NCBI GenBank assembly: GCA_902760755.1
Contig: CACWHK010000015.1
Location: 36,880 to 100,879 of the forward strand
Direction of reading: 5' to 3'
Source: an uncultured Lachnospiraceae bacterium
Lineage (GTDB): Bacteria; Bacillota; Clostridia; Lachnospirales; Lachnospiraceae
Length of the DNA: 64,000 bases
The translations under genes and the position numbers were made by a program. The first letter of the stretch is position 1; every line of letters starts with the position of its first letter. Below, in pieces: positions 22,790-60,238 of this stretch. A model generated the notes under the pieces. The model did no database searches. It was not told the DNA's origin and saw only the letters and a list, made by a program, of their open reading frames with translations.

Positions 22790-22837
22790 CCGGACGAAAG
22801 TTCGTTGAAATGAGAGTACGCAGGAGGAGTAGTTTGC

Positions 22838-24262
22838 GTGGACGATAAGGAAAGGGGAAAATTAGCTGCGAAGGCCGGAAGCTGGTTCGTTGTGTCTTCC
22901 ATCATGGTGAAGCTGGCTGCGCTGATCACAACCCCGATCTTCACGCGAATCCTTACCAAAGCGGAATACGGAAATGTTGCGACCTTCATTTCCTGGTCCT
23001 CGCTTCTTTACGCCTTCTGTATGCTGGATCTTCCATCCAGCACCGGTCGTGCCAAGCTGGACTACCCGGGAAAGCTCCGGGAGTATATCGGATCCGTCCA
23101 GCTGCTGGCAGCCATGATCACGGGAGGAATCCTCGGGGTGTCGGCCATCTTCCTCTCCAAGCTGACCGGCTTTATGGAGCTGGATGTTCCGGAGCTGCTC
23201 CTTCTCGGAGCCTATCTCTTCTTTTCTCCGGCCATCACCTTCCGGCAGTTATCCTACCGCTATCAGTATCAGTATAAGCAGAATATCGCCATCGCATTTT
23301 ATACGACCTTCAGCTCGCTGCTGCTGTCGCTGCTGTTGATCTTCTGTATCCCCGGGAACAACGAACATCTACGGATCATCGGTATCGTGCTTCCCTCGGT
23401 GGTACTGTCCATCGTATTCTGGGTTCAGGATATCCGGAAGGGACACATTAAGATCAATACGGAGTTCTGGAAGTACGGACTTGCGATCTCCGTACCGCTG
23501 GTGCTCCACAAGGTGGCAGCCAGTATCCTTACCCAGTCGGACCGTCTCTTTATCACGAAATACCACGGGTCGGAGAATACCGCTCTTTACACCCTGATCT
23601 ACAGCTATTCCATCCTGATCACAACCATTACTACGGCCATCAACGACGGGTGGCTGCCCTGGTTCCATGATACATTTTTCGAAAAGAAGTATGATCAGAT
23701 CCGTAAAAATGTAAAGCCTCTGATCGTTCTCGGTGCGTATATCGGGCTTGCCTGCGTGGCACTGGCACCGGAGGCCATCCTGGTCCTGGGCGGTAAGGAC
23801 TACATGGATGCCATCGGGTGCGTAACCCCCATCGTGGTGGGCGTTGTGTGCCAGTATATCTATACCCACTACGTAAATATCGAGATCCATCTGAAGAAGA
23901 CCTATTATGTGTCCATCGGAACAACCGTCGCGGCGGTCACAAATATCGTCCTGAACTTTATCTTCGTGCCGCAGTACGGCTTTGTTGCAGCGGCCTATAC
24001 CACCCTGGCCAGCTACTTCGTGCTGATGGTGGTCCATGCGTTCATCACCCGGCGGATCCTTCATGTGAAGCTCTATGATGAGCGGTGGATGTTCGGAACG
24101 GTTGCCGTTGTTGCTGTTGTTGCCTGGGCCCTGCAGTGGACCTATGACCATCCGGTGATCCGCTACGCGGTAACGGCAGTCGGATTCCTGTCCTTCCTGT
24201 TCGTATTCAGGAAGTATATCAGAGGATTTTTGAAGAAAAGAAAGAAGAGGAGCGCATCATGA
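22838..24262 (+). CDS. Polysaccharide flippase (Wzx/MATE-like)
   Basis: Integral membrane protein of the MOP superfamily, 474 residues with about 12-14 hydrophobic segments. The N-terminus reads AAKAGSWFVVSSIMVKLAALITTPIFTR, typical of oligosaccharide-lipid flippases, with TRILTKAEYGNVATF next. It starts with GTG at 22838 after AGGAGGAG. Its stop overlaps the next start (ATGA). It would move undecaprenyl-linked glycan units across the membrane. No polymerase or glycosyltransferase is present in this operon. Confidence 0.88.
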   Translation: MDDKERGKLAAKAGSWFVVSSIMVKLAALITTPIFTRILTKAEYGNVATFISWSSLLYAFCMLDLPSSTGRAKLDYPGKLREYIGSVQLLAAMITGGILGVSAIFLSKLTGFMELDVPELLLLGAYLFFSPAITFRQLSYRYQYQYKQNIAIAFYTTFSSLLLSLLLIFCIPGNNEHLRIIGIVLPSVVLSIVFWVQDIRKGHIKINTEFWKYGLAISVPLVLHKVAASILTQSDRLFITKYHGSENTALYTLIYSYSILITTITTAINDGWLPWFHDTFFEKKYDQIRKNVKPLIVLGAYIGLACVALAPEAILVLGGKDYMDAIGCVTPIVVGVVCQYIYTHYVNIEIHLKKTYYVSIGTTVAAVTNIVLNFIFVPQYGFVAAAYTTLASYFVLMVVHAFITRRILHVKLYDERWMFGTVAVVAVVAWALQWTYDHPVIRYAVTAVGFLSFLFVFRKYIRGFLKKRKKRSAS

Positions 24263-25449
24263 ATGTAGCATTTATTCCGGTAAGAGGCGGGAGCAAATCC
24301 ATCCCGCTGAAGAATATACGCCCCATCAGCGGTCGTCCGCTGGTGTACTGGACCGTTCGGGCAGCCTGCGGCTGCAGCGCCATCGACCGCGTGTATGTGG
24401 CGACCGACAGCGATAAGATCCGTGAAACGGTAGAGTCCTTCCAAAGGGGGGTGGAAGCAAAGCTCTTCTCGAAGGTCGAGGTGATCGGAAGGTCTGCGGA
24501 GTCCGCATCGGACACGGCTTCCACCGAGTCCGCCATGCTGGAGTTCGCGGAGCAGTATGATTTCGACAATATCGTTCTGATCCAGGCAACCTCACCGCTT
24601 CTTACGGCAGAGGATCTGGACCGGGGCTTCGAGGCCTATGCGAAGGAGGGTACGGACAGCGTGCTTTCCGTGGTGCGTCAGAAGCGCTTCCACTGGGCAG
24701 AGGACGCAGAGGGGGTTGCATACCCCACAAACTATGATGTGTATCACCGTCCGCGCAGACAGGAATTCGACGGGTATCTCGTGGAGAACGGAGCATTTTA
24801 TATTTGCTCGAAGGAGGATCTGCTCCGAACGAAGAATCGTGTATCCGGAAGGATCCGTGCCGTGGAAATGAACGAGGATACCTTCTTTGAGATCGATGAG
24901 CCCAGCGACTGGGTGATCATCGAGGCGCTGATGAAGAAGAACGGCATCACCGCACCGGAGGAGCTGCCGGACATCAAAATGTTCCTTACGGATTGCGACG
25001 GGTGCCTTACGGATGGCGGCATGTACTACTCGGAGCACGGCGATGAGTTAAAGAAGTTCAATACCCGCGACGGCATGGGCTTCGGCCTGCTTCGTGCGAA
25101 GGGGATCGTAACCGGTATCGTGACCAGCGAGTCCGTGGATCTGAACCGGAGACGTGCAGAGAAGCTGAAGCTGGATATCCTGGAGGCAGGCTGCAGGGAT
25201 AAGGTGGAAGCCGTGAAGCGGCTTGCAGAGGAGCGGGGGATCCCCATGGAGCAGATCTGCTATATCGGCGATGACATCAATGATGTGGAGGTGTTGAAGC
25301 TGGTGGGTTACGGCTGTGCACCGGCAGATGCGAGACCCGAGGCCATTGAAGCCGCAAGGTACGTAACGAAGGCGAAGGGCGGCGAGGGCGTGATCCGCGA
25401 GGTAGTGGACCGGATCCTGTCAAATAAAGGAGAGAATAAGCATGAGTAA
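24259..25449 (+). CDS. Fused CMP-nonulosonate synthetase / KdsC-like HAD phosphatase
   Basis: Two enzymes in one 396-residue chain. Residues 1-225 form a CMP-sialic-acid synthetase (NeuA type): FIPVRGGSKSIPLKNI, ATDSDKIRE and LIQATSPLLTAEDL. Residues about 237-390 form a YrbI/KdsC-type HAD phosphatase with the nucleophile pair in FLTDCDGCLTDGGMYY, a conserved Lys/Thr region and GDDINDVEVL. The same fusion exists in animal CMAS, where the HAD part is inactive; here the DxD pair is kept. Paired with the upstream synthase this suggests a route through a 9-phosphate intermediate. It overlaps both neighbours by a few bases. Confidence 0.88.
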   Translation: MNVAFIPVRGGSKSIPLKNIRPISGRPLVYWTVRAACGCSAIDRVYVATDSDKIRETVESFQRGVEAKLFSKVEVIGRSAESASDTASTESAMLEFAEQYDFDNIVLIQATSPLLTAEDLDRGFEAYAKEGTDSVLSVVRQKRFHWAEDAEGVAYPTNYDVYHRPRRQEFDGYLVENGAFYICSKEDLLRTKNRVSGRIRAVEMNEDTFFEIDEPSDWVIIEALMKKNGITAPEELPDIKMFLTDCDGCLTDGGMYYSEHGDELKKFNTRDGMGFGLLRAKGIVTGIVTSESVDLNRRRAEKLKLDILEAGCRDKVEAVKRLAEERGIPMEQICYIGDDINDVEVLKLVGYGCAPADARPEAIEAARYVTKAKGGEGVIREVVDRILSNKGENKHE

Positions 25450-26155
25450 CATAGCTCTGATCATAGCAGGCGGTTCGGGAAACCGCATGCATCAGGACAT
25501 TCCGAAGCAGTTTCTGACCGTAAATGAGAAGCCGGTCATCGTCTATACCCTGGAGGCCTTCCAGGAGCATCCCGAGATCGACGCCATCGCGGTGGTCTGC
25601 ATCGACGGATGGGAACAGGTGCTCCGTGCCTATGCAAAGCAGTTTAATATCACAAAGCTGCAGCACGTGATCCCCGGCGGGGAGAACGGGCAGGGCTCGA
25701 TCCGGAACGGCGTGTACGAGCTGGAGAAGCACTATGATGCGAAGGATCTGGTATTGATCCACGACGCCATTCGTCCCATGGTTTCGGCGGAGATCATTTC
25801 CGACAACATCCGCGTTGCTCTGGCACACGGAAATGCCATCACCGTGATCCCCTGTGCGGAGGCCATGCTTCAGACCGAGGACGGACAGGTGTCCGCAGGA
25901 AGCTACCCGAGAGACCGGCTGAAGAGAACTCAGACCCCGCAGGCCTTCCACATAGGAGATATCGCAAACCTGCACAGAGAAGCACTGGAAGCAGGGATCA
26001 CGAACTCCGTGGCATCCTGCACTCTGATGATCGAGATGGGGAAAGAGGTATACTTCTCCGCAGGCTCCGAGAAGAATATCAAATTGACGACGGTAGAGGA
26101 TTTGGATATTTTCAAGGCGCTATTAGCAGCGAAGCGTGCAGACTGGTTGAAGTAA
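25442..26155 (+). CDS. IspD/TarI-family cytidylyltransferase
   Basis: A 237-residue CTP-dependent sugar- or polyol-phosphate cytidylyltransferase. ALIIAGGSGNRM is the CTP-binding loop, with PKQFLTVNEKPVIVYTLEAF next, and LVLIHDAIRPMVS and RTQTPQAFH complete the family pattern. IspD (methylerythritol phosphate) and TarI-like (ribitol phosphate) proteins share these motifs. The glycan operon context and the following SDR gene favour a polyol-phosphate role, but an isoprenoid role cannot be excluded from sequence alone. It overlaps the upstream fused gene by eight bases. Its last codons form the start of a palindromic repeat. Confidence 0.82.
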   Translation: MSNIALIIAGGSGNRMHQDIPKQFLTVNEKPVIVYTLEAFQEHPEIDAIAVVCIDGWEQVLRAYAKQFNITKLQHVIPGGENGQGSIRNGVYELEKHYDAKDLVLIHDAIRPMVSAEIISDNIRVALAHGNAITVIPCAEAMLQTEDGQVSAGSYPRDRLKRTQTPQAFHIGDIANLHREALEAGITNSVASCTLMIEMGKEVYFSAGSEKNIKLTTVEDLDIFKALLAAKRADWLK

Positions 26156-26219
26156 GTGTCGACGATCGCACATCCTCCCGCTTGCGGGAGTGGCAAAGCC
26201 ACGGAGCAATCCGGGCTTC
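26149..26219. repeat. Intergenic hairpin repeat, family 2
   Basis: Begins GAAGTAAGTGTC at the cytidylyltransferase stop codon, contains a CTCCCGC-TT-GCGGGAG hairpin and a GTGGC-AAA-GCCAC hairpin, then CGGAGCAATCCG and GCTTC. The copy at 44189 has the same arms with different but still paired stems. Confidence 0.75.
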
Positions 26220-26246
26220 AACCAATCATATGGAGGAATAATACCC

Positions 26247-27314
26247 ATGATCTATGATAGCAATCGTTGGTTCGAGGATATCGACCACGTAACGGCGGAA
26301 GCCCTTCCGTTCCTCGGAGAGCTGGCAGGGAAGTCGGTGATGATCACCGGTGCCGCAGGCCTGGTGCTCTCCCCGGTGGTGGACATCCTGATCCGATACA
26401 ATGAGACGCACGAAACCCCGATCCGCATCCTGGCTGCCGGACGCTGGCAAAGGGAGATGACGGACCGGTTCGGAGCGTACTGTGAAAAGCCGTACTTTAC
26501 ATTTGTGATCTACGACGCATCCCGCACGGATAACTGCATCACAGAGAAGGCGGACTACATTATTCACGGGGCCAGCAACGCCTCTCCGGATATGATCGTA
26601 AAGGAACCCGTGGAGACCATGATGAGCAACTTCACGGGCATGAAATATCTGCTGGATGTGGCAAAGGAGCTTGGAACAAAGCGGCTGCTTTACATCAGCT
26701 CCAGCGAGGTGTACGGGAAGAAGGAAGGCGACCAGCCGTACCGCGAGGGAGAATACGGCTATATCGACCTTCTGTCCGCACGGAATTCCTACTCGGTCGG
26801 AAAGCGTGCAGCAGAAACCCTCTGCGCATCCTATGCGGATGAGTACGGTGTGGATTCCGTGATCGTACGCCCCGGACATATCTACGGACCGACCGCATCC
26901 CCCATGGACCGGCGTGTAGCCTCTGTCTGGGCTTATGCGGTAGCAAGAGGCGAGGATATCGTGATGAAGAGCGACGGAGCCCAGCTCCGCAGCTACTGTC
27001 ACTGCCTGGACTGCGCTTCGGCGATCCTGACGGTACTTCTTCGCGGAGAGTCCGTGCATGCCTATAACATCTCCAATCCGAATGCTATCGTAAGCATCCG
27101 AGAGATGGCCGAGCTACTGGCCGGATCTGCCGGCGTACAGCTTCGGATGGAGCTTCCGACGGAAGAAGAGAAGAAGGGCTTCAACCCCATGAGTAACTCC
27201 TCCCTGGACAGCGCTGTCCTGGAATCCCTGGGTTGGAAGGGCCTCTTTGATGCCCCGTCCGGATTTGCGGAGACAGTGGAGGTACTGCGGGAGATGTCCC
27301 GCTGTGTTGCCTGA
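26247..27314 (+). CDS. NAD-dependent epimerase/dehydratase (extended SDR)
   Basis: A 355-residue Rossmann-fold sugar-nucleotide enzyme. VMITGAAGLVLSPVVD is the dinucleotide-binding loop, with Leu where the third Gly of GxxGxxG is usual. LLYISSSEVYG holds the Ser region, and YSVGKRAAE is the YxxxK active site. VIVRPGHIYGP matches extended SDRs of the dTDP- or UDP-sugar type. The start at 26247 follows GGAGG; an earlier in-frame ATG lies in the repeat. It is the last gene of the glycan operon, before a strong terminator. The sugar substrate is unknown. Confidence 0.85.
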   Translation: MIYDSNRWFEDIDHVTAEALPFLGELAGKSVMITGAAGLVLSPVVDILIRYNETHETPIRILAAGRWQREMTDRFGAYCEKPYFTFVIYDASRTDNCITEKADYIIHGASNASPDMIVKEPVETMMSNFTGMKYLLDVAKELGTKRLLYISSSEVYGKKEGDQPYREGEYGYIDLLSARNSYSVGKRAAETLCASYADEYGVDSVIVRPGHIYGPTASPMDRRVASVWAYAVARGEDIVMKSDGAQLRSYCHCLDCASAILTVLLRGESVHAYNISNPNAIVSIREMAELLAGSAGVQLRMELPTEEEKKGFNPMSNSSLDSAVLESLGWKGLFDAPSGFAETVEVLREMSRCVA

Positions 27315-27334
27315 AGAACTAAATATAAAAAAGG

Positions 27335-27389
27335 CCGGAGACGGAATGTGGTACATATCAAATGCACCACATTCCGTCTCCGGTTTTTT
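27335..27389 (+). terminator. Terminator of the glycan operon (palindrome A)
   Basis: An 18-bp perfect stem beginning CCGGAGACGGAATGTGGT, with loop ACATATCAAATGC, followed by six T residues. It closely resembles the palindromes at 28881 and 31778. Confidence 0.9.
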
Positions 27390-27437
27390 GATTTTTCATT
27401 GGCGATAAGAACTTTGACAATTTCGCCATATTTCCTA

Positions 27438-27483
27438 TTGTATTTTTGACATTTTGACGTCGTTTTCGGTTGTATTTTTGACA
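27438..27483. promoter_or_regulatory. Direct repeats upstream of the ATPase gene
   Basis: TTGTATTTTTGACA occurs twice (27438-27451 and 27470-27483), 32 bases apart, about three helical turns. The pair lies just upstream of the ATPase start and could be a regulator binding site. A weak promoter (TTGTAT, 17 bases, TAGAAT) overlaps the second copy. Confidence 0.45.
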
Positions 27484-27519
27484 ATAATGATATAGAATCA
27501 GGTTGGAGGTGATATTCTG

Positions 27520-28866
27520 ATGCAACTTGACAGGAAGATTGAGAAAAAAATAGAGAAATGGATAAATGAAAGTGAAAAAGCTTTACTTGTCAGGGGGGCG
27601 AGGCAGGTTGGTAAAACACATATAATCCGTTCAACATTGAAAAGGATGGGATGCAGATATGTGGAGCTTAATCTGATAGAACAACCGTCCGCAGTAGATA
27701 TTCTAAGGGAAAGCCATACGATTAATGAAATTATCATGGGCATTTCAACGTTGACGGATGAACCATTGGTTAAAGGAGAGACGCTTATCTTTATTGACGA
27801 GGTTCAGAAGTATAAAGAAATGGTCTCAAAGATTAAATTTCTTGTTGATGAGGGAAGCTTCCGATACATCCTAAGCGGATCCCTGCTGGGTGTGGAACTG
27901 ACAAATCTCACATCAGCACCGGTTGGATATCTTACGATACTTGATATGTTTCCTTTGGATTTCGATGAGTTCCTCCAGATCACCAATATTACATCAGATG
28001 TAAGGAATCATTTGAAACAATGCTTTAAGGATCGAACCCCGGTAATGAATACGGTAAACGAAAAACTGCTATCATTATTCAGGCAATACCTCGTGGTTGG
28101 AGGTATGCCTGAAGCAGTAAGCAAATTTGCGGAATCCTATAGCCTGCAGGATGTACAGACGATCCACGAGGACATCATGAGATTGTACAAAATGGATTTC
28201 ACACAGTATGAGGCAGAGAACAGGCGTCTGATCCTGGCGCAGATTTACGATTTAATTCCTGCAGAACTGCTGAAACAGAACAAAAGATTCATCGTGACTG
28301 ATTTGAAAAAAGGGCTTCATTTTGAACGTGTAGAGGATTCTTTTTTATGGCTCAGGAACGCCGGCGTGGCTATATCCGTTTTTAATGCGTCTGAAACCAG
28401 GATTCCACTTAAACTCAGCGAAAAACAGAGCCTATTTAAACTTTATATGTCAGATGTCGGTATGCTTACAAGCGTATATGGAATGACAACAAAATCAAGA
28501 ATTCTTACCAGAGACCCAAACCTGAACTGTGGTGGCATCTATGAAAATGTGGTTGCAACCGAACTGGCCAGCAAGGGATATCATGTATATTATTATAATT
28601 CGAAGAAAAAGGGAGAACTTGATTTTGTGTTGGAATATCGAGGACAGATACTCCCTGTTGAAGTGAAAAGCGGAAAGGATTATTCTGTTCATTCAGCGTT
28701 AACGGCTTGTGTTAATAATCCGGAATATGAGATCCCGGAAGCGTTCGTATTTGCAGAGTGCAATATTGAACGGCGGGATAAGGTGACATATCTTCCGGCC
28801 TATATGGTTGGATTTATGGATGATCTGCCGGAGGAAACTATGACGATAGAACCAATCCGGTTTTGA
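27520..28866 (+). CDS. AAA ATPase with DUF4143-type C-terminus
   Basis: A 448-residue ATPase of the AAA/DUF4143 family. The Walker A is VRGARQVGKTHII and the Walker B LIFIDEVQKY. Sensor-like YILSGSLLGVEL follows, and the C-terminal GELDFVLEYRGQILPVEVKSGK resembles a PD-(D/E)xK nuclease fold with Asp, Glu and Lys in place. The family is common, often near mobile or rearranged DNA, and its function is not established. Codon use is AT-rich compared with all neighbours, which suggests recent transfer. GGAGGTGAT precedes the ATG. Related palindromes A and B flank it in the same orientation. Confidence 0.85.
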   Translation: MQLDRKIEKKIEKWINESEKALLVRGARQVGKTHIIRSTLKRMGCRYVELNLIEQPSAVDILRESHTINEIIMGISTLTDEPLVKGETLIFIDEVQKYKEMVSKIKFLVDEGSFRYILSGSLLGVELTNLTSAPVGYLTILDMFPLDFDEFLQITNITSDVRNHLKQCFKDRTPVMNTVNEKLLSLFRQYLVVGGMPEAVSKFAESYSLQDVQTIHEDIMRLYKMDFTQYEAENRRLILAQIYDLIPAELLKQNKRFIVTDLKKGLHFERVEDSFLWLRNAGVAISVFNASETRIPLKLSEKQSLFKLYMSDVGMLTSVYGMTTKSRILTRDPNLNCGGIYENVVATELASKGYHVYYYNSKKKGELDFVLEYRGQILPVEVKSGKDYSVHSALTACVNNPEYEIPEAFVFAECNIERRDKVTYLPAYMVGFMDDLPEETMTIEPIRF

Positions 28867-28878
28867 TCCTATCAGAAA

Positions 28879-28991
28879 GACCGGAGACGGTTTGCGGTAC
28901 ATATCTATTGCACCGCATCCCGTCTCCGGTCTTTCTTTGTTATTTCGAATTTATTCCGGCAGATGGATTTGATTCGCGTACAGCTTCGCAT
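28879..28991 (+). repeat. 113-bp inverted repeat, left copy
   Basis: Matches the reverse complement of 31716-31828 at 112 of 113 positions by eye. It contains palindrome B and the last 13 codons plus stop of the BCCT transporter gene, which lies on the reverse strand. Confidence 0.9.
28881..28935. terminator. Bidirectional terminator (palindrome B)
   Basis: CCGGAGACGG...CCGTCTCCGG with loop ACATATCTATTGC, followed by TCTTTCTTT. It ends the ATPase gene on the + strand and the BCCT gene on the - strand. Confidence 0.8.
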
Positions 28992-30510
28992 CCTTGATGA
29001 AGCTTGCGATGATCAGGATGATCACGAGAGCGATGGGGAAGGCAGCGATGATGCTGACAGACTGCATGTTCGCCATGGTTCCTTCGCTGAAAATGAGGGC
29101 AATCGGAAGCAGGATCAGCAGCAGGGCCCAGAAGAGCCGCGCCTTCTTGCCGGGTTCCTCATCCCCCTGGAACTCCTTGTAGCTGTACTGGGATGCCACG
29201 AGGGTGATGCTGTCGAAGCTGGTGGAGTAGAAAGCGATCATGGAGATGATCAGAACAACTAATACAATCTGCGGGATCGGCAGGGTATGAATGATACCGA
29301 TGACGGTCTGGTACAGGTCACCACAGGCCGTATATAACCCGATGGCGTCGAATTGTCCGGTCAGCTGCTGCCCCATACCGAAGTTTCCGAGTACGATAAA
29401 GGATACCAGCGTACTGCAGAGTCCGAAGATATAGGTTCCCATGATAATCTGCTTTACAGTTCTGCCCTTGCTGATCTGGCCCATGAAGAACGGGGAAGCC
29501 ACACACCAAACCATCCAGTATGCCCAGTAGAAAATGGTCCAGTTTTGCGGGAAGCTGTTTTCCCGAAGGGCATCTGTATAGGTGGATAGGCCGATAAAGT
29601 TCTGGAACATGTTACCGAGAGAAGAAAGCCCTGTCTCAACGATATACCGGGTCTGTCCGCCGAAGAGGAATACATACGCCAGAAGGAAGATGAAGAGATA
29701 CATGCAGATCTGCGCCGACATGGAGATCCCCTTCAGTCCCTTCATGACCGAGAAGGTGTAAAGACAGCAGGTAACAAGAAGGATTGTGATGGTGATGTAC
29801 TTGGAGCTCTCGATCCCGAAAAGGTCTGAAAGTGCCTCGCCGAGAAGCGGTGTGGCTATAGAAAAGGTGGTCGCGGTTCCTGCGATCAGAGCGACCACGG
29901 CCAGAACATCGATGATCTTGCCGGGGGCCTTGTCGGTGTACTTCCCGAGGATCGGACGGCAGGCCTCCGAATATTTCTGCTTCTTCTTGCCACGTACATG
30001 GAGCATGAAGCCAAATGCGGCAGCAAGCACCGCATAGAACGCCCAGGGGATTGGTCCCCAGTGGAACAGCGTGAAGGTCTGTGCCCAATCCTGTGTAGTC
30101 CCGAGGTCCTGCACATGGGATTCCTGAGAGTAGTAGATCCATTCGCAGAAGGAATAGAACAGGATATCGGCAGCCAGACCACAGGTGAACACCATGGCAC
30201 CCCAAGTCCAGAACTTAAACTTCGGCTTCGCATCCTGCCCGCCCAGACGGATCTTTCCGATCCGGGAGAAGGAGATCCAGAGCGATACGATCAGTACTCC
30301 GAGACCGATGATCAGATAGTAGGACCCGAAGGAATCCCCTAAAAATCCCCGGACCTTATCCATGGCCTCCGTAGAGGCCTCCGGCTTCGTCATAAAGAAG
30401 ATGCAGAGTACGGCGATGGCGATCAGCGGAACGATCGTCGTCCAGGGATCGATCCTTCGGAGACCTCCCTGCTTTATACTTGATTCTTTCCCCTTAGTTC
30501 CTTCACTCAT
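28951..30510 (-). CDS. BCCT-family transporter (choline/betaine/carnitine)
   Basis: Secondary transporter of the betaine-choline-carnitine family, 519 residues, about 12 hydrophobic segments. The family hallmark in segment 8 is visible as FYWAYWMVWCVASPFFMGQISKG split over the substrate-binding Trp residues. FHWGPIPWAFYA is another conserved stretch. The start at 30510 follows AAAGGGGA. It lies 47 bases downstream of a choline-kinase-like gene in the same reverse-strand operon, which makes choline the likely substrate. Its last 13 codons are duplicated in inverted orientation at 31716. Confidence 0.9.
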   Translation of the reverse strand: MSEGTKGKESSIKQGGLRRIDPWTTIVPLIAIAVLCIFFMTKPEASTEAMDKVRGFLGDSFGSYYLIIGLGVLIVSLWISFSRIGKIRLGGQDAKPKFKFWTWGAMVFTCGLAADILFYSFCEWIYYSQESHVQDLGTTQDWAQTFTLFHWGPIPWAFYAVLAAAFGFMLHVRGKKKQKYSEACRPILGKYTDKAPGKIIDVLAVVALIAGTATTFSIATPLLGEALSDLFGIESSKYITITILLVTCCLYTFSVMKGLKGISMSAQICMYLFIFLLAYVFLFGGQTRYIVETGLSSLGNMFQNFIGLSTYTDALRENSFPQNWTIFYWAYWMVWCVASPFFMGQISKGRTVKQIIMGTYIFGLCSTLVSFIVLGNFGMGQQLTGQFDAIGLYTACGDLYQTVIGIIHTLPIPQIVLVVLIISMIAFYSTSFDSITLVASQYSYKEFQGDEEPGKKARLFWALLLILLPIALIFSEGTMANMQSVSIIAAFPIALVIILIIASFIKDAKLYANQIHLPE

Positions 30511-30557
30511 GATTATCCCCTTTCCGCTAACGGCCGATCGCCGTACTTTGGTTTTTT

Positions 30558-31451
30558 TCACAGTCTATGCTGTCGTTCCTTCACGTATCCGTAAAAATCC
30601 TTTGCGTACTGATATTGTCGGAGGATATAATCTCCGAAATCCTCACCCACCTGCTGCTTGAACTCGCACCAGTTACTCCAGAGCAGTCCGCAGACGGCCG
30701 TGTAGCAGTAGATTTTGGTACGCACCGTTTCGGGACAGGCCCCTTCGAAGTACAGGTCGATCAGATGATCCACCTCCTCCTTCGAGTAGAGACTGTAGAT
30801 CGCAAACATGGCGATATCCACATGGGGGTCCTGCATCCCGGCATATTCCCAGTCCGTCAGCTGCAGCTTCTCCGTCCCGTCCTGCATATAGAAGAGGAAG
30901 TTGTCCGGTACTGCGTCGATGTGTGTCAGGCTGTAATCCTTTGGCTGTGCATCGATAATACTCTTCAGCTCAAAGACGTGGGCCTTCACCTCTTCATAAT
31001 CCGGGAAGATGGAAGGGGTTCCGCACCGAAGACCTTCGTACAGATTGATCTGACCGAAGAGCGGATACTCATTCCGTACCCGGATCTTCTTTTCATGAAA
31101 CTGCCGAAGCAGCCGCATACACCGTATCAGATCCTCTTCTTTCTTCGGATCGCAGCTCCGCGCTCCCTCCAGAAACCGGGTGATCTTGATGCCTGTTCCC
31201 GGGTCGATATAGTAGGGATCATCGCAGAAGCCGTATCCGCTGATGGCCCGGAAGATCTCTGCTTCCGCCCTCCGGTCGATCAGACGGTCCGTGCCCTCCC
31301 CCGGAATCCGGAGGATATACTTCTCTTCGCGCACACGAAACAGGAAGGAGCGGTTGGTCATGCCCTTCTTCATCACACTGACATTGCTGATCTCAGCTTC
31401 ACTGCAGTGGAATACCTGTGTAATTAACTGAATCGCAAGCGATTTGTTCAT
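30558..31451 (-). CDS. Choline/ethanolamine kinase-like protein (LicA type)
   Basis: A 297-residue APH-fold kinase predicted to phosphorylate choline. The N-terminal MKKGMTNRSFLFRV is the nucleotide-binding loop of the family. The catalytic loop is LTHIDAVPDNFLF (HxD....N), and the metal-binding LTDWEYAGMQDPHVDIA follows. The combination with a BCCT transporter resembles choline uptake and activation systems for phosphocholine-decorated surfaces. No LicC or LicD partner is seen in the window. The promoter at 31488 carries a large palindromic operator. Ethanolamine or another amino-alcohol substrate remains possible. Confidence 0.85.
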   Translation of the reverse strand: MNKSLAIQLITQVFHCSEAEISNVSVMKKGMTNRSFLFRVREEKYILRIPGEGTDRLIDRRAEAEIFRAISGYGFCDDPYYIDPGTGIKITRFLEGARSCDPKKEEDLIRCMRLLRQFHEKKIRVRNEYPLFGQINLYEGLRCGTPSIFPDYEEVKAHVFELKSIIDAQPKDYSLTHIDAVPDNFLFYMQDGTEKLQLTDWEYAGMQDPHVDIAMFAIYSLYSKEEVDHLIDLYFEGACPETVRTKIYCYTAVCGLLWSNWCEFKQQVGEDFGDYILRQYQYAKDFYGYVKERQHRL

Positions 31452-31468
31452 GTGGACGCATTTTCCCT

Positions 31469-31515
31469 TTCTCGTGAACTAATGGTCATTGTAGCAGTGT
31501 TCACGAGAATGTCAA
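31469..31515 (-). promoter_or_regulatory. Promoter and palindromic operator of the choline operon
   Basis: Reverse-strand TTGACA (31515-31510) and TACAAT (31493-31488) are 16 bases apart, with an extended TGC-TACAAT. Perfect 11-base inverted repeats TTCTCGTGAAC (31469-31479) and GTTCACGAGAA (31499-31509) flank the -10, with centres 30 bases apart. Each half is itself near-palindromic (TTC-N4-GAA). This is a good candidate repressor site. Confidence 0.8.
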
Positions 31516-31662
31516 TATTTGATTTTGGTGAACGGCAGAACAAATGTCCACTCATTCAGCCGAAAAACACACAGTAAAACTGCCGAAAAACCAAAACAAA
31601 ACTTGAAAAGCGGTGTAAAATCGGGCAAAAAAGAGTTAGATTATCTATTGGAGGTTTTGCGA

Positions 31663-31737
31663 ATGGAATACGTTACGAGGATTGTCGATAAAGTCCTGGA
31701 TGAAAGGACGAAAGCATGCGAAGCTGTACGCGAATGA
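31663..31737 (+). pseudogene. Truncated start of a second DUF4143-type ATPase gene
   Basis: GGAGG and ATG at 31663 open a frame reading MEYVTRIVDKVLDERTKACE, which resembles the N-terminus of DUF4143 ATPases (relatives continue into a Walker A). The frame runs into the inverted copy of the BCCT gene end at 31716 and stops at 31737. The break point shares a few bases (GCGAAGCTGT) with what such a gene would read next, so the fragment looks like the product of a rearrangement. Confidence 0.5.
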
Positions 31738-31828
31738 AATCCATCTGCCGGAATAAATTCGAAATAACAAAGAAAGACCGGAGACGGGATGCGGTGCAAT
31801 AGATATGTACCGCAAACCGTCTCCGGTC
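31716..31828 (-). repeat. 113-bp inverted repeat, right copy
   Basis: Reverse complement of 28879-28991 with one difference, a C/G change that would alter a Gln codon of the transporter tail to Glu. It contains the transporter's last 13 codons, its stop codon and palindrome C. Segments between the copies (28992-31715) hold the choline operon and its promoter. Confidence 0.9.
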
Positions 31829-32336
31829 GTTTTCACAATTTTCTGATTCAAATCGGAGAAATATGACGGTTTCGATCGGAAGAATGTGAATTACAGGATC
31901 TCCCAATTTGTAGCATCCTCATTATCCTTCAAATAGTCTGAGCTTGCAACTACTTTACCAGATATCCTTCTGCATACAAGTATTTGGAGAAACTTGTATT
32001 AGTTGCATATTCCGGGAAAACAGCATGCCGTTCCTTTGGAACGGTTGTGCTTTTTTCCCGGAATATGCAGTGAAGTTTATCCAATAACAAAACAAAAGCT
32101 GGAGAGTAGTTATGAGCTTACAGGAAGCAAATACTCTCACAGCTTTGAATACGATCCTTCGATCAGGAATATTGTTACTGGCGAAAAAATAAGTGTTCTT
32201 AATTTTGCAAATGGTGTAATAAGTACAGGGAAGTCCCGAATTCTGGCTAACATCAGTATTTATAAGGGATTCCACGATATTAATTTATCGTGAGCATACA
32301 CTATTTATTTGCCAACACTTTGCAGAAACTCTTCTC
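31829..32336. other. Gene-poor AT-rich stretch with remnants
   Basis: About 500 bases without a recognisable complete gene. On the reverse strand 31900-31975 could encode a short C-terminal fragment (SSDYLKDNEDATNWEIL, then stop). The segment 31946-31972 recurs inverted at 33978-34004 with two differences. A long hairpin sits at 32005. A + strand frame to 32293 has no ribosome binding site and no known relatives. It looks like decayed insert DNA. Confidence 0.5.
32005..32068. repeat. Long hairpin in the gene-poor stretch
   Basis: GCATATTCCGGGAAAA and its complement close a 64-base hairpin; an inner arm GCCGTTCC pairs across a TTTG loop with GGAACGG. No T run follows on either strand, so it is not an obvious terminator. 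Confidence 0.7.
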
Positions 32337-33173
32337 TCAGGAGGACTGCTCCTGCCTGCTTACCAAAGCGATCATGGCCTTGATATCATCCATATCCTTC
32401 TGTACCTTTGCCAACTCTCCGTCAAGAGAGACCTCTTTCTTCTTTTTCCGGTAAAAGGCGGCACCTTCACCATCATCCAAAGCCAGGATCAGTTTATTTC
32501 CGTCCAGCTTCGCAGCTGTTCCACGGTGCCTTTCGGACAGGGAGCCCAGCTCCTCCAGAAGCCGTGGCAGGATCCGTTGTGATCTGTCCTGCGGATCCGA
32601 TACGTACAGATCGAAGTCTCGATCATATTCCTCATTTTCAATGAGGAGCTTTCCCTGCTCCTCCTCCGGGCTGAGGGCTCTGTGAGAGAAGGACTTGCTG
32701 AAAATCGTTTCTCCGGTACCGATCTTTTCCGGAAATTCAAGTACTACCATCCTTCCCTTGAAGAATACAGTAGTATTGTTCTTCTTTGCCAGACGAGCAT
32801 AATCCTGTATGGTCACATCCGACAGTTCGACATGAACATCCTTACAGCTGCATTTCCCATATGCTTCCGAGTCAAATTCGTTTCCCATAGGGCATAGTTG
32901 AAAGCCTTCCACCATCTCCTCGGAGAATCCTTCATATGGTTCAAAGGATACATTTTCGAAATTCCCGGTGAGCGGCTCCTTGATAAAAACCTCTCTGTAT
33001 AGTTCATCCATTTCCTGATTGGCTTTCTCTCTCATCCTGATGCCGGCAAATAAAAGGCCAAGACCAACAGGAAGGAGCAGAATGCCTGCATAACCCCAGG
33101 TTTCCAATTCTGCTCCTCGTAACGCTTTTTTTCTCAGCTGCTCCATGCGGAGCAGCGATTCACTTTTATTCAT
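32337..33173 (-). CDS. DUF3137-like membrane protein
   Basis: A 278-residue protein with one membrane segment near residues 24-48 (WGYAGILLLPVGLGLLFAGI) after a helical, charged N-terminus. A long cytoplasmic or outer domain of DUF3137 character follows (FIKEPL, FFKGRMVVLEFPEKIG). The C-terminus is a short coiled coil. A start at 33173 is supported by GGAG; an alternative start overlaps the upstream gene's stop at 33206. It forms a two-gene reverse operon with the next protein. Function unknown. Confidence 0.7.
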   Translation of the reverse strand: MNKSESLLRMEQLRKKALRGAELETWGYAGILLLPVGLGLLFAGIRMREKANQEMDELYREVFIKEPLTGNFENVSFEPYEGFSEEMVEGFQLCPMGNEFDSEAYGKCSCKDVHVELSDVTIQDYARLAKKNNTTVFFKGRMVVLEFPEKIGTGETIFSKSFSHRALSPEEEQGKLLIENEEYDRDFDLYVSDPQDRSQRILPRLLEELGSLSERHRGTAAKLDGNKLILALDDGEGAAFYRKKKKEVSLDGELAKVQKDMDDIKAMIALVSRQEQSS

Positions 33174-33205
33174 AGTCTCCGTTCCATCCCTTTCATAGGG
33201 AATCA

Positions 33206-33838
33206 TCACTCTTTGACAAATACAATGTCCGCGCCATTATTCTGCAGTCTTACGGTGTTACCCGCGATATCTGCCTTTCCTGACATCTGCTTGCTTCCAT
33301 TGGTAATTGTAAACTTATCTCCCTCCATTGTAAAGTCACAATGTCCGGTAAATCCGAAAACCGTAAGGTCCGCTTCATTTCCGTCGATCTTCAGGGACAT
33401 ATTCTTTGTATTGACCCCATAAGCTGCAAGCTGATCGGGTGAAACCTCCTCACCGCGGACATCCACATGGGTAAAACGATAAGAACCATCTACCGAGTTT
33501 GATTTCTTCCGGAAGATCCCCATCATCCAGCAGCTTCCCAGTACAAGGAGAGCCGCAGCCGCAACCACAAGGATCGGATTCAACCGGAATCCCTTCGGGG
33601 TCTCCGGGATCTCCGTGTCTCTTGCCGGTGTTACCGGTACAGACTTCGGTGTCTCCACCAACGGGCAGCCGCCGACCTCCTTCTCAATCTGCATGGAGGA
33701 GGAGAACTGATCCTCTGCCCATTCGGTGCGCTTTTCAACCACCGCATGGTTCGCCGGATCTGCTCCAAAGGGGTTTGAATGCTCTGCATTTCCGCCTACC
33801 AGCTCGTACTTATTCTTCCGGGGTTCTGTTTCGTTCAT
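33206..33838 (-). CDS. Single-pass membrane protein with lipocalin-like outer region
   Basis: A 210-residue protein with a charged cytoplasmic N-terminus of about 95 residues, one membrane segment near residues 98-118 (ILVVAAAALLVLGSCWMMG) and an outer beta-rich segment (DGSYRFTHVDVRGEEVSPDQL, FTMEGDKFTITNGSKQMSGK). Similar outer segments occur in many uncharacterised Lachnospiraceae proteins. The start at 33838 follows AAAGGA. A reverse-strand promoter TTCTGT-17-TATAAC can be read near 33913-33942. It is cotranscribed with the DUF3137-like gene. Confidence 0.7.
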   Translation of the reverse strand: MNETEPRKNKYELVGGNAEHSNPFGADPANHAVVEKRTEWAEDQFSSSMQIEKEVGGCPLVETPKSVPVTPARDTEIPETPKGFRLNPILVVAAAALLVLGSCWMMGIFRKKSNSVDGSYRFTHVDVRGEEVSPDQLAAYGVNTKNMSLKIDGNEADLTVFGFTGHCDFTMEGDKFTITNGSKQMSGKADIAGNTVRLQNNGADIVFVKE

Positions 33839-34031
33839 GATTTTTTCCTTTCTTTCCTGAACAACCGTTTTCATCTGACCGGTGTCCTGAATATAACCTT
33901 TACTTTTCTCTCTTCGCAGGTTATAGTATCAGATCATTTATCACAGAACCGTCACACAACTTTTTATACCTTTGATTCAGAAGGATATCTGGTAGAGTAG
34001 CTGCGAAATTGTATCTACATATGAAATGAGG
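33839..34031. other. Upstream region of the DUF3137 operon
   Basis: No gene recognised. It holds the operon's likely promoter and the 27-base segment (33978-34004) that recurs inverted at 31946-31972. Confidence 0.4.
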
Positions 34032-34079
34032 ATGCTGCAGATTGACAGTGTATTGCTGTGAATCTGCAGCATTCTTTTA
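34032..34079 (+). terminator. Terminator-like hairpin
   Basis: ATGCTGCAGATT and AATCTGCAGCAT form a perfect 12-bp stem, followed by TCTTTTAT on the + strand. No + strand gene is recognised just upstream, so its role is unclear. Confidence 0.6.
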
Positions 34080-34080
34080 T

Positions 34081-34115
34081 CAAAAAATCCGTAGCAATGC
34101 GCGATTGCTACGGAT
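34081..34115 (-). terminator. Terminator of the MATE gene
   Basis: On the reverse strand ATCCGTAGCAAT and ATTGCTACGGAT pair across a 4-5 base loop, followed by TTTTTTG. Confidence 0.9.
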
Positions 34116-34146
34116 GAAAGGGGAATGATATGATGGAAGTTGTAGG

Positions 34147-35559
34147 CTATTTGGTAACAAGAGAGGCTACGCGGCGCCGGCGGATCAGCTTCGGTCGTTC
34201 GTGGGCATTCGTGTAGCGCCGGATGATCCGGAAGTAAGTCACCGTGTTCATCAGCAGGGCAGCGGACCAGGCGGCTACCTCTGCCATGGCGGTTGCCTGG
34301 AAGCCGATGGTCTTCATGAAGAGGGCGATGGTCAGGATCCGCATCACCATCTCCAGGATACCGGAGAACATGGGCATAACCGGGAAGCCCATTCCCTGAA
34401 CCGCACTTCGGAAGACGAAGAGGAAGTCCACGAAGATGAGAGCCAGGCCGGTGATCGGGAGATAATTCTCCACCAGAGCTATGGCTTCTTCTCCGTCCAG
34501 AAGGAAGGTTGCCAGTTGATGCGAGAAGAAGATCATAAGGCTTCCTAACAGGACAAATGAGATCAGCGCAACCCGGAGGCAGACCCGAAGGCCCTCTTTG
34601 ATCCTCGGATAATCCTTCGCACCGAAGTTCTGACTGGTGTAAGCACTCATGGCGTTGCCCACCGTGAAGGCAGGATTCATGAACAGGTTGTTGTACTTAC
34701 TGCAGACGGAGTATGCGCTGGTGTAGACCACGCCGTAGCCGTTTACGAAGAACTGTACCACCATACAGCCGATGGCGGTGATGGAGTTCATGAAGGCCAT
34801 GGGAAGACCATTCTTCAAAAGTCCCAGATACAGGCTTCGTTCGTTATGAAAATCTGTCTTCTTCAGATGAATAAATTCAATCTTGGCAAGCTGCCGGATG
34901 CAGATCAGAGAGGATACAACCTGTGAGATCACGGTCGCCAGAGCAGCACCCTCAACACCGGTATGCAGGATGAAGATAAAGAAGGAATCCAGTCCCAGGT
35001 TCAGAACCGAGGAAACAAGGATCGCCTTCAGCGGAGTCTTGCTGTCTCCCAGCGAACGCAGCATTCCCGAGGAAATGTTGTATGTGATGGCGGAGAAAAG
35101 ACCCGCGAAGATCACCCGACCGTAACGCAGGCTGTCATCCATGATCACCTCATCCGTCCGAAGCAGACGCAGTGCGGACGGAAGCAGAAGCAGGCTGAGA
35201 AGCGTAAGGAACACCGTCAGTGCCAGCGCCAGCTGGATCGTGGCAGCGATATTCCGGCGGAGAAGGTCCATCTTCTTTGCGCCGAAGCTCTGTGCGATCA
35301 TAATGCCGAACCCGTTGGAAAGTCCCAGCGAGAATCCGATGATCAGGAAGAAGAGGGAACCCATATTTCCGACAGCGGCCAGTGCGTTGTCGCCGAGTCC
35401 CTTGCCTACGATCAGTGTATCTACAAAATTATATAACTGCTGAAGCATACTGGTCAGCAGCAACGGCCAGAAGAAGCCGAGGATCAGCCGGGTGGGGCTT
35501 CCTTTCGTGAAGTCAGAAACCAGGCTCTTTTTATTCATTTTAAGTTCGGTCTTTTCCAT
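34147..35559 (-). CDS. MATE-family efflux transporter
   Basis: Multidrug/cation antiporter of the MATE family, about 470 residues and 12 hydrophobic segments in two repeated halves. The N-terminal motif FTKGSPTRLILGFFWPLLLTSM and QQLYNFVDTLIVGKGLGDNALAAVG are typical, as is GFSLGLSNGFGIMIAQSFGA. The second half begins near residue 245 (KNGLPMAFMNSITAIGCM). Starts at 35559 or 35568 are both close to AAAGGA. It is a single-gene reverse transcript. The exported compound is unknown. Confidence 0.92.
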   Translation of the reverse strand: MEKTELKMNKKSLVSDFTKGSPTRLILGFFWPLLLTSMLQQLYNFVDTLIVGKGLGDNALAAVGNMGSLFFLIIGFSLGLSNGFGIMIAQSFGAKKMDLLRRNIAATIQLALALTVFLTLLSLLLLPSALRLLRTDEVIMDDSLRYGRVIFAGLFSAITYNISSGMLRSLGDSKTPLKAILVSSVLNLGLDSFFIFILHTGVEGAALATVISQVVSSLICIRQLAKIEFIHLKKTDFHNERSLYLGLLKNGLPMAFMNSITAIGCMVVQFFVNGYGVVYTSAYSVCSKYNNLFMNPAFTVGNAMSAYTSQNFGAKDYPRIKEGLRVCLRVALISFVLLGSLMIFFSHQLATFLLDGEEAIALVENYLPITGLALIFVDFLFVFRSAVQGMGFPVMPMFSGILEMVMRILTIALFMKTIGFQATAMAEVAAWSAALLMNTVTYFRIIRRYTNAHERPKLIRRRRVASLVTK

Positions 35560-35787
35560 GATGTTCATGTCCTTTCCATGCAGGTCCGTGATCAGTTCAG
35601 TGGTTTCTGTTGTTGTCCGCATTTAAACACTTTTTCTGAGATTTGTTTTATAAATCCTTTATGTTTTTTATAATTTTATGGCATGATATTCTGAAATATG
35701 GTACAATGAAACCGTTGAAACTACGGGGGTTTCAAGGATTTTGTTTTTATTTTGATTTTATGTCATGATCTGTTAGAGAAGGTTAGT

Positions 35788-36454
35788 ATGAATACGAATA
35801 AAGAACTTGATTACAGATTATATCTGCAGAGGGATGAGGAATTCGTCCGGACGGATGTCCGGAAGGAGTTTTCCCGTTACGAAGCGATCGTGAGCGGAGA
35901 TGTGGCGCAGGTGAAGAAGAACTTTGAGGAGGTTCGGAAGGATTTCTTTGCGGGAAAGGGTGTGCTCTCCCAAAACCCTCTGCGCAACAGCATCTACCAT
36001 TTGGTGGTATCCATGGCCGTGATCGCGCGGATGTGTGTGGAAGCAGGCCTTCCGCACTCAGAGGCCTATACCATCAGCGATATCTATATTCAGAGTGCCG
36101 ATGTTTCGAAGTCGGTGGATGAGGTGATCGACCTGATCGGGAAAGCGCAGGTGGACTTCGCGGAGCGCATGCGAAAGCTCCGGAAGACAGCTTGCGAAGG
36201 CAGAGGGACTGAGCCCCGGATACTTCTCCAAGCTGTTTGCGAAGGAGGTCGGGATGACCGTGAAGGCATATATCCTCTCCGTGAAGATCCGGACTGCCGC
36301 GAATATGCTGGAGAATCTGGACTATTCTATCTCGGACATTTCCTACTCTCTGGGCTTCTCCTCCCAGAGTGCCTTTACGACGGCTTTCAAACAGCAGATG
36401 GGTTGCACGCCGGCAGCTTACCGGAGCCGTCAGGACTACATACGGATGCACTGA
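35788..36454 (+). pseudogene. Decayed AraC-family regulator
   Basis: The first 130 codons read as the N-terminal part of an AraC-type regulator (MNTNKELDYRLYLQRDEEFV through VDFAERMRKLRK). Near 36180 the reading frame changes. The C-terminal HTH continues in another frame as QLAKAEGLSPGYFSKLF and SISDISYSLGFSSQSAFTTAF, ending at 36454. About 20 residues that normally join the two parts are missing, so the change looks like a deletion with frameshift and not a single-base error. The fused frame otherwise reads nonsense to 36540. An extended -10 (TGG-TACAAT at 35702) and AAGG site remain. Confidence 0.75.
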
Positions 36455-36578
36455 TTTCGTGTCGGTTGACATCCGCGCATGGAGGGGTTACGATTTCCAT
36501 CAACTGTTACATAGACTTTGATGAATCATCGCAAATATGATATTCCTGTTGGATGTCTGAGAGAGTAGGCATGAATTG

Positions 36579-36608
36579 TTGACATTCGCCGTGCCTATGA
36601 CGTACAAT
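36579..36608 (+). promoter_or_regulatory. Promoter of the 36636 gene
   Basis: A perfect TTGACA (36579-36584) and TACAAT (36603-36608), 18 bases apart, 28 bases before the start codon. Confidence 0.75.
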
Positions 36609-36635
36609 GTATCTCGGGCATTTGGAGGATGATGT

Positions 36636-37040
36636 ATGAAGAATATAGCAGCGGTCGTTGTTATCCTGGCACTCTGTGTTGAGCTGTATCTTTGCACGGC
36701 CGGAAGCCAGCATAAAAAGAAGAAACTGTTGAAGGGCTGGAATAAGACGAAGGGAACCATCCGCAGCATCGACAAGGTGCAGGACAACGTGGGAGCCAGC
36801 CGGAAATCCTATATGGAGCTCACCATAGATGCGGAGAGCGGACAGACCGTCTACGCACGGCTCGGGATGATGTGCATCTACGAGGTCGGTGAGGAAGTGG
36901 AGCTGATGGAGAAGGACGGATATCATCGATTTCTCGGAAATGACCGTGTGAACGCGCGGGCGAAGAAGGAGCTGCTCTGGGGAACGATCCCGATGGTGGT
37001 GCTGATCGCAGCCATTGCGGTGCTGAGTATCGTGTTCTGA
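36636..37040 (+). CDS. Small two-pass membrane protein, function unknown
   Basis: A 134-residue protein with hydrophobic ends (residues 3-20 and 113-133) and a middle beta-rich, charged region (GWNKTKGTIRSIDKV, YMELTIDAESGQTVYARLG, YEVGEEVELME). This layout resembles DUF3592-like membrane proteins. GGAGG lies eight bases upstream of the ATG. It is followed by another small membrane protein and an amino-acid importer, probably in one transcript. Confidence 0.7.
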   Translation: MKNIAAVVVILALCVELYLCTAGSQHKKKKLLKGWNKTKGTIRSIDKVQDNVGASRKSYMELTIDAESGQTVYARLGMMCIYEVGEEVELMEKDGYHRFLGNDRVNARAKKELLWGTIPMVVLIAAIAVLSIVF

Positions 37041-37079
37041 CGGATTAGTCAGTTTTGTGGGTGAATGAAGGAGGAGCGT

Positions 37080-37388
37080 ATGGCTAAGAAGGTAAAGCAG
37101 GAAACGGTTGCTGTGACGGTGCAGCCGGAGGCAGAAGAGAAGGAATCGAAGAAGAATAAGGTGGTTCGCGCAAAGAAGGCGAAGCATACGAAGAAGGTGA
37201 AGACTCCGAAGCCGCCGAAGCAGAAGAAGGAGAAGCGCTCTGCGAAGCGTCAGAGGATCGCATATGAGAAGGCACTGAAGAAGACCAGCGCAGAGAGGAC
37301 CCTCTCGCTGATCGCCATCGCACTTGCGCTCTTTAGTTCCGTGCTTTCCGCCATTATGGAAGGCAAGAATGACGGATCGGATCAGTAG
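37080..37388 (+). CDS. Lys-rich tail-anchored small protein
   Basis: A 102-residue protein. The first 80 residues are extremely Lys/Glu/Pro-rich and likely disordered and basic; the last part has a single hydrophobic segment (LSLIAIALALFSSVLSAIM), as in a tail-anchored protein. The start at 37080 was chosen for AAGGAGGAG six bases upstream. I do not recognise it. It sits 30 bases before the substrate-binding protein gene. Confidence 0.65.
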   Translation: MAKKVKQETVAVTVQPEAEEKESKKNKVVRAKKAKHTKKVKTPKPPKQKKEKRSAKRQRIAYEKALKKTSAERTLSLIAIALALFSSVLSAIMEGKNDGSDQ

Positions 37389-37417
37389 AAAATATATGAA
37401 AAGGATTGGTAAGAAAG

Positions 37418-38209
37418 ATGAAGAGAATGAAGAAACTGGTAGCTGGAATACTTGCGGTTGCGTGTCTGGGAATGGTTATGACCGGATGCGGAAGCAAGGA
37501 TTCGAGGAAGTTCACGGTAGGCTTTGATGCGGAATATCCGCCCTATGGTTACATGGATGAATCCGGCAATTACACGGGCTTCGACCTGGAGCTGGCAGAG
37601 GAGGTCTGCAAGCTGCGCGGATGGGAGCTGGTAAAGCAGCCGATCGTATGGGACAGCAAGGATAATGAGCTGAATTCCGGATCCATCGATTGCATCTGGA
37701 ACGGCTTCACCATCAACGGCCGTGAGAACGATTATGAATGGTCCGTACCGTACGTAGATAACAGTCAGGTGATCGTTGTCAGCACAAAGTCCGGCATCAA
37801 GGACTTTGCAGGTCTGTCCGGCAAGACGGTTGGTGTGCAGGCAGCGTCTGCCGCACTGCAGGTTCTGCAGGATGAAGAGGGCCAGAAGAAGCTGGCAGAT
37901 ACCTTCGGAAAGCTGCAGGAGTTCGGTGATTACAATACCGCATTCGTAGAGCTGGAGGCAGGCTCGATCGATGCGCTGGCCATGGATATCGGTGTGGCTC
38001 AGTATCAGATCAAGAGCCGCGGTGACAGCTTCGTGATCCTGGAGGAGCACCTGAATGCAGAGCAGTACGGTGTCGGCTTCAAGAAGGGGAATACCGAGCT
38101 TCGGGATCAGATCAATGAGTCCCTGAAGGAGCTGAAGAAGAACGGAAAGTTCGACGAGCTGGCGAAGAAGTATGAGCTTTCGGATATGGTATGCCTGAAG
38201 GCTGAGTAA
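37418..38209 (+). CDS. Polar amino-acid ABC transporter, substrate-binding lipoprotein
   Basis: A 263-residue lipoprotein of the SBP_bac_3 family. The signal peptide ends in a lipobox (MVMTGC), so the mature protein begins with Cys at about residue 24. FTVGFDAEYPPYGYMDESGNYTGFD, WDSKDNELNSGSIDCIWNGFT and GKTVGVQAASAALQVL are typical ligand-binding segments. GSIDALAMDIGVAQYQI is a later family motif. It is followed 10 bases later by the permease gene. The ligand is probably a polar amino acid, perhaps cystine or glutamine. Confidence 0.93.
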   Translation: MKRMKKLVAGILAVACLGMVMTGCGSKDSRKFTVGFDAEYPPYGYMDESGNYTGFDLELAEEVCKLRGWELVKQPIVWDSKDNELNSGSIDCIWNGFTINGRENDYEWSVPYVDNSQVIVVSTKSGIKDFAGLSGKTVGVQAASAALQVLQDEEGQKKLADTFGKLQEFGDYNTAFVELEAGSIDALAMDIGVAQYQIKSRGDSFVILEEHLNAEQYGVGFKKGNTELRDQINESLKELKKNGKFDELAKKYELSDMVCLKAE

Positions 38210-38219
38210 GAGGTTTTCT

Positions 38220-38864: not shown

Positions 38865-38873
38865 GGAGGTGCC

Positions 38874-39635: not shown

Positions 39636-39664
39636 CGGGAACGAATAAAGCAAGAATATAACAA

Positions 39665-39719: not shown

Positions 39720-39753
39720 ATGCTCTGTTTATTCTACCGTCGATTCCGAGGCT

Positions 39754-60181: not shown

Positions 60182-60238
60182 TCATCTTGAATTATGAAGG
60201 ATAATATTTGTTTAATAATTTTTAAGTGTTTTTGAAGA

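Follow-up and report, generated by a model that had tools for sequence, protein, structure and literature searches.

In a 64,000-nucleotide (nt) stretch of contig CACWHK010000015.1 from an uncultured Lachnospiraceae bacterium (hereafter the window), a cassette holding a choline-kinase-like gene and a BCCT-family transporter gene lies flipped between its neighbours by comparison with related genomes, as it does also in one relative, G017. The cassette is bracketed by two inverted arms, whose match over 120 nt is not a product of chance, and its right arm cuts into a second gene. We favour, with about an even chance of being right, the reading that an inverted copy took the place of the original operon, whose end survives as the right arm. 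Both cassette junctions carry genes for AAA_14-DUF4143 ATPases, one intact and one cut at about codon 18, and homologues of the intact gene tend to have direct repeats at a fixed pitch upstream. That lead is stronger than the cassette scar and matters more. The cassette and its arms comprise the following features.

28876-28995, minus strand: left arm, consisting of the BCCT gene 3′ end, stop codon and hairpin
28951-30561, minus strand: BCCT-family transporter gene (PF02028, E 2.4e-127; TIGR00842 above cut-off)
30558-31451, minus strand: choline-kinase-like gene, LicA half (PF01633, E 1.4e-13)
31515-31488, minus strand: promoter-like site TTGACA-16-TACAAT (11/12 match), inside the cassette and overlapped by GTTCACGA half-sites
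31559-31715, plus strand: 5′ end of a second DUF4143-type ATPase gene, comprising two 23-nt repeats (31559-31603), a ribosome-binding site and, from an ATG at 31663, about 18 codons up to the right arm, which interrupts the gene
31712-31831, plus strand: right arm, a second BCCT 3′ end and hairpin with the rest of the gene absent, in the place and orientation of the BCCT end in relatives

A repeat search returned the arms as a pair 98% complementary with 2716 nt between them, and a base-by-base count gives three mismatches (117 of 120 positions alike). An earlier note on this DNA had described inverted copies at 28879-28991 and 31716-31828 with 112 of 113 bases alike; our recount gives the same figure for that core and extends the arms to 120 nt. 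The sole core mismatch is the Gln/Glu change of the note, with the Gln codon in the left arm and the Glu codon in the right. Glu stands at this codon in all ten related loci examined (L073-L082) as well as in the right arm. The left-arm core holds the palindrome together with the stop and the last 12 complete codons of the transporter; the note had counted 13, and was right that both copies carry the end of the gene and its stop.

Orientation was compared across the ten best-ranked BCCT loci, which are L073-L082, with flanking genes as anchors, among them three of the window.

26190-27314, plus strand: epimerase/dehydratase gene, upstream of licCA-BCCT in relatives
34147-35622, minus strand: MATE transporter gene, directly after BCCT in L082/L194
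36636-37040, plus strand: conserved 134-aa gene, downstream of BCCT in relatives

The kinase and BCCT genes lie on the strand of the anchor genes in seven of the ten loci: four have anchors on both sides (L075, L078, L080, and L082), two have downstream anchors only (L076 and L081), and L077 has anchors downstream plus, on its upstream side, a weak wzx match. The one inverted locus is L073 (G017), and two have no useful anchors (L074 and L079). The gene order at L194, on the same contig as L082, is ispD, epimerase, licCA, licC, BCCT, MATE, o262, and o134. There the BCCT tail (10249-10293) matches window positions 31712-31756 and the MATE frame starts 151 nt past the BCCT stop, and the right arm therefore sits where the BCCT end lay ancestrally and points the same way. 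Some 2.3 kb of other sequence separates the arm from the MATE gene in this genome. In the stretches of the ten loci, a search for a second copy of the BCCT end (160 nt round it) returned only a 55-nt hairpin copy in L073 and chance-like matches of at most 25 nt; with flanks of up to 10 kb, and L079 stopping 10 nt past the BCCT stop match, this is an absence near the gene rather than genome-wide. The earlier note would have abandoned its proposal if relatives lacked the right copy with no trace of rearrangement; the copy is indeed absent near the ten loci, and a trace of rearrangement is present.

At 31715/31716 the right arm is fused to the truncated second ATPase gene, of which approximately 18 initial codons are left. 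The 23-nt repeats in front of this fragment recur upstream of intact ATPase genes in four loci (L198, L199, L202, and L204) and of a truncated one in L200; they are also found upstream of other things (L201, L203, and a second place in L199). Beyond the arm, the region is a patchwork. It includes a remnant, and a similar sequence adjoins the G017 cassette in the other orientation.

31916-31967, minus strand: remnant similar to the 3′ terminus of a choline-binding-repeat gene (gene identity by eye)

The debris right of the arm also contains a strong palindrome (32004-32069, 22-nt arms, 95%) and a segment, 32059-32250, that is 96% identical to a stretch of G064.

The scar could have arisen as follows. 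The ancestral order would have been ispD, epimerase, promoter, choline kinase (licCA), BCCT, terminator, and MATE/o134. In the lineage leading here, the piece from promoter through kinase to BCCT would have come to lie inverted between the same neighbours, while the BCCT end and its hairpin kept their original place and orientation and became the right arm. The likeliest route would be an inverted copy arising beside the original, or an inversion with duplication at its end. The original would then have been lost down to its last 120 bases, by way of a junction inside the second ATPase gene, and the two arms would be alike either through the recency of that loss or through sequence exchange between the copies. 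The cassette appears to be a self-contained operon, and its orientation should matter little to expression. In favour of this account count the orientation of the seven direct relatives, the L194 match, the promoter layout shared with L194 and L080, the Glu codon of the right arm, the strong folding of the arm hairpins and the signs of exchange between hairpins. The sequence itself shows the repeat, the inversion against relatives and the cut ATPase gene; the order of events, the operon's function, the terminator role of the hairpins and the lack of a regulatory effect are inferred.

Several observations weigh against this account. An intermediate with two cassettes was not seen among the loci compared, and the remainder of the second ATPase gene did not turn up. 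The terminator pattern scan listed neither arm hairpin (six hits in total, against 5.4 in shuffles). Both the right arm and the ATPase fragment are missing from the G017 locus. A further point is the age of the arm. Per 113 positions, the left and right arms differ at one, the left arm and G017 at nine, and the right arm and G017 at eight. The contrast between 1/113 and 9/113 gives P = 0.019 by Fisher's test, and a rough Poisson estimate from BCCT third-position divergence (59/537) gives P = 0.0145; the right arm thus seems younger than the split from G017, which shares the inversion. For the right arm to be the relic of that old event, the arms must have exchanged sequence later; otherwise the arm is an independent copy made afterwards. 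Of the nine differences between the left arm and G017, four fall in the hairpin's first arm and loop, where G017 is identical to its own epimerase palindrome, and this part of the G017 hairpin looks like a conversion from that palindrome. The right arm is thus either young or was homogenized with the left arm, both of which fit the data.

The main rival to the leftover account makes the right arm a small templated copy of later date: repair of a break within the second ATPase gene would have removed the gene body and copied in 120 bases from the left arm 2.7 kb away, in an event unrelated to the older inversion. The divergence counts just given and the absence of right arm and ATPase fragment from G017 speak for such a copy, as does its ending at the hairpin base. 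It asks, however, for a coincidence, since of the two cassette ends the copy would have had to strike the one facing MATE, and to do so in the ancestral orientation, and the four differences traced to apparent conversion in G017 take away part of its numerical support. We consider this a real possibility, though one we would not bet on.

It is unlikely that the cassette is actively invertible, with homologous recombination between the arms flipping the operon within the population. The arms themselves, near-identical and inverted over 113-120 nt, would permit it, and neighbouring hairpins in G017 show apparent sequence exchange. As in an inverton, inverted repeats flank the segment (120 nt, three mismatches); by sequence evidence, though, the promoter does not point outward and instead reads into the enclosed genes. 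Since the cassette encloses its promoter, and both its left end and the right copy bear strong hairpins, flipping would have no evident output. No recombinase family appeared in the 28 sequences scanned with Pfam, comprising 27 from the window (one of them a 25-aa out-of-frame stretch) and one from L072, the other open reading frames (ORFs) of the window being inspected by eye only. Each genome compared has one orientation (one assembly per species), and the kinase gene (30558-31451) has no short tandem repeat: Tandem Repeats Finder on 26000-34500 gave three arrays, all elsewhere. The earlier note's proposal that recombination between the copies inverts the cassette is thus borne out in that the cassette is inverted relative to relatives and the arms could recombine, and is unsupported as to ongoing flipping; the alternative it offered, a one-time event, fits better.

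Short inverted chimeras are a known assembly artefact and the genome is a metagenome bin in 78 contigs, 88% complete, yet a chimeric join is very improbable, as the right arm differs from the left, carries the residue of all ten relatives, and is fused to part of a different gene that has upstream repeats of its own. Two further schemes were set aside. A one-step inversion through staggered breaks predicts that the left junction should hold the remainder of the second ATPase gene, yet the ATPase gene there is intact and a different one, and a native remnant combined with transfer from G017 predicts a remnant as diverged from the left arm as other species are, which it is not unless it was converted.

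The gene that occupies the left junction leads to the stronger of our observations.

27406-27485, plus strand: direct repeats at a 32-bp pitch upstream of the intact ATPase gene, TTGTATTTTTGACA at 27438-27451 and 27470-27483, with a degenerate copy at 27406-27419 (by eye)
27520-28866, plus strand: intact AAA_14-DUF4143 ATPase gene (PADLOC candidate defence PDC-S01, best E 1e-180)

Tandem Repeats Finder independently reported period 32 at 27413-27485 (2.3 copies) and period 23 at 31559-31603. We surveyed the regions upstream of homologues of the intact gene (loci L154-L178 and L237-L305). In the genus set of 24 loci, where the pattern was first seen and which includes near-duplicates (L154/L155, L163/L164, and L168/L169/L171/L172), 22 loci have their best direct repeat spaced at 32 or 33 bp, and the repeated sequences differ from gene to gene. 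The order set was chosen before any upstream sequence was inspected (310-nt stretches at 69 of the 82 non-own matches listed, L296 being dropped for N). Of these 68 loci, 28 have a repeat at 32-33 bp that is exact over 9 nt or more; the 40 loci without one count against the generality of the pattern. By spacing, the order set has eight repeats at 32, 21 at 33, five at 34, and 14 at 66; the mean for all spacings outside 31-34, the peak at 66 included, is 0.56. Among 904 control regions upstream of other long ORFs, 17 have such a repeat; these are the 260 nt upstream of unfiltered ORFs of at least 300 aa and may hold some ATPase genes. A separate control of nine regions was contaminated by other ATPase genes and was not used. 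In a phylum-wide draw of DUF4143 loci, only two of 23 had a repeat that beat shuffles, at 23 and 39 bp, which makes the repeat pattern a trait of the subfamily.

The array and its gene may travel as one piece. Between two species, a 1507-bp unit of array and ATPase gene (positions 1360-2866 in both L163 and L164) is 99.2% identical with no match in the flanks examined, and no target duplication was seen round it by eye. Similarly, the window and L156 share 27439-28864 only, from the first full repeat to the gene end. A tentative interpretation, which we hold with more doubt than belief, is that ATPase genes of this subfamily are minimal mobile units, each made up of one gene and its own array of two to three direct repeats at 32-33 bp (about three helical turns) in a gene-private sequence; that the ATPase binds its array as an autoregulator or sensor, so that protein and array change together; and that the arrival of such units at both cassette ends accompanied the inverting breakage. 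Binding of an ATPase to its own array is a guess. The fixed-pitch, gene-specific array offers a direct handle on the control of these ATPases.

A second DUF4143 subfamily has upstream repeats at a 23-bp pitch, with eight copies in L204 (2917-3092). Two phylum-level loci with a similar N terminus (by eye) show a 23-bp pitch (L215) and a weak 46-bp pitch (L216).

The ATPases are candidate phage-defence genes. The PADLOC scan covered the window ATPase and L072, an intact relative of the cut gene, which matches PDC-S01 at E 9e-57. No solved structure matches the window ATPase by sequence at E 0.01. In the available text of PMC12988326, PDC-S01 is described as joining an ATPase to a fused PD-(D/E)XK-type domain and as ranking fourth in frequency among prokaryotic defences, with most such candidates awaiting experimental validation; it is the most frequent individual locus in bovine rumen genomes according to the available portion of PMC13356809. 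The ATPase at 27520-28866 resembles this system in matching its PADLOC models and differs in its fixed-pitch, sequence-variable upstream repeats, of which the available parts of the two papers (PMC12988326; PMC13356809) make no mention; the words promoter, operator, and direct repeat are absent from the main text of PMC12988326 as available. We found no paper in the open-licence literature on DUF4143 genes with upstream repeats or on solitary ATPases with direct repeats, which is weak evidence of novelty.

The hairpin of the arms has a relative on the far side of the intact ATPase gene.

27324-27388, unstranded: palindrome 3′ of the epimerase gene, related by sequence likeness to the BCCT hairpin
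28874-28936, unstranded: palindrome between the convergent AAA (plus) and BCCT (minus) genes, folding at -45.6 (plus) and -50.6 (minus) kcal/mol

The palindrome of the right arm folds at -44 and -39.2 kcal/mol on its two strands, and the folding energies of the arm palindromes on both strands were matched by none of 200 shuffles. The palindrome at 28874-28936 is probably a terminator for both the AAA and BCCT genes, and its copy in the right arm may likewise terminate transcription. The terminator pattern scan did list the epimerase palindrome, on the minus strand. In G017, 55 nt are identical between the palindromes on either side of the ATPase gene (epimerase-side and BCCT-side), compared with seven differences over 47 positions in this genome, a sign that such hairpins exchange sequence. 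More diverged relatives occur on three other contigs of this genome (C21, C26, and C12). At E 0.01 the hairpin was detected in three of 61 genus genomes: this one, G017, and G046 (a 24-nt match only). Rfam gave no match at gathering scores in 22000-40000, and an origin as REP/RAYT elements was rejected, with no Y1 transposase match in this genome (88% complete). We leave the hairpins as a small local family.

The earlier note had seen a BCCT transporter, a choline kinase, and a promoter in these 2.7 kb, and the family models and the internal promoter-like site agree. The promoter scan as a whole barely exceeds shuffles (nine sites against 7.7), so support for the site comes from its conservation: its layout with GTTCACGA half-sites is shared with the region upstream of licCA in L194 and L080, from which it follows that promoter and genes moved together. 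The transporter substrate is, by inference from the family, choline or betaine, and the operon probably imports and phosphorylates choline. The LicC half that several relatives have is absent from the kinase gene of this genome; here and in G017 the kinase half stands alone, directly behind the operon promoter. In L194 a LicC-LicA fusion of 614 aa has the kinase as its latter half, and after it come another LicC-like gene and BCCT (names by similarity, by eye). A further LicC-LicA-like frame of 607 aa lies on contig C21 of this genome.

The segment 26182-31533, which takes in the left junction and the cassette genes, is 96% identical to G017, with identity patchy along its length, and the preceding 6.6 kb is 80% identical. 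This step suggests recombination between species, by which 26182-31533 would have been exchanged. The 5.35-kb shared stretch has sharp edges at 26157/26182 and 31533 and lies in a surface-polysaccharide region. Elsewhere in the window, a sigma-factor operon (60225-62043; PF04542) has a relative beside the inverted G017 cassette, 92% alike at first and 67% at the end, and the place of the sigma operon is taken in G017 by a LicC-LicA fusion (stretches compared: L029 12247-14046 and L191 9242-11416).

In lic1 operons, licA encodes a choline kinase and licB a permease. The cassette resembles these operons in joining choline uptake and kinase genes, and its window also encodes a choline-binding-repeat protein (62152-63039). 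It differs in its BCCT carrier, in the missing LicC half, and in a kinase gene that has no short tandem repeat.

With the invertons and other phase-variable DNA of gut bacteria, as described in the available part of PMC11892184, the cassette shares a segment between inverted repeats near surface-modification genes; here, in contrast, the promoter is enclosed rather than outward-pointing, no invertase gene was found nearby, and each genome compared shows a single state. Long inverted repeats round an operon need not mean a switch, a warning that the present case provides while showing how an operon can be turned round and what scar is left. A further parallel is offered by the inversions of Drosophila and other eukaryotes that carry inverted duplications at their breakpoints: there too, short inverted copies stand at the ends, one of them at the segment's former end. 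The case described here differs in that a single end is duplicated, in a bacterium, and together with a cut gene.

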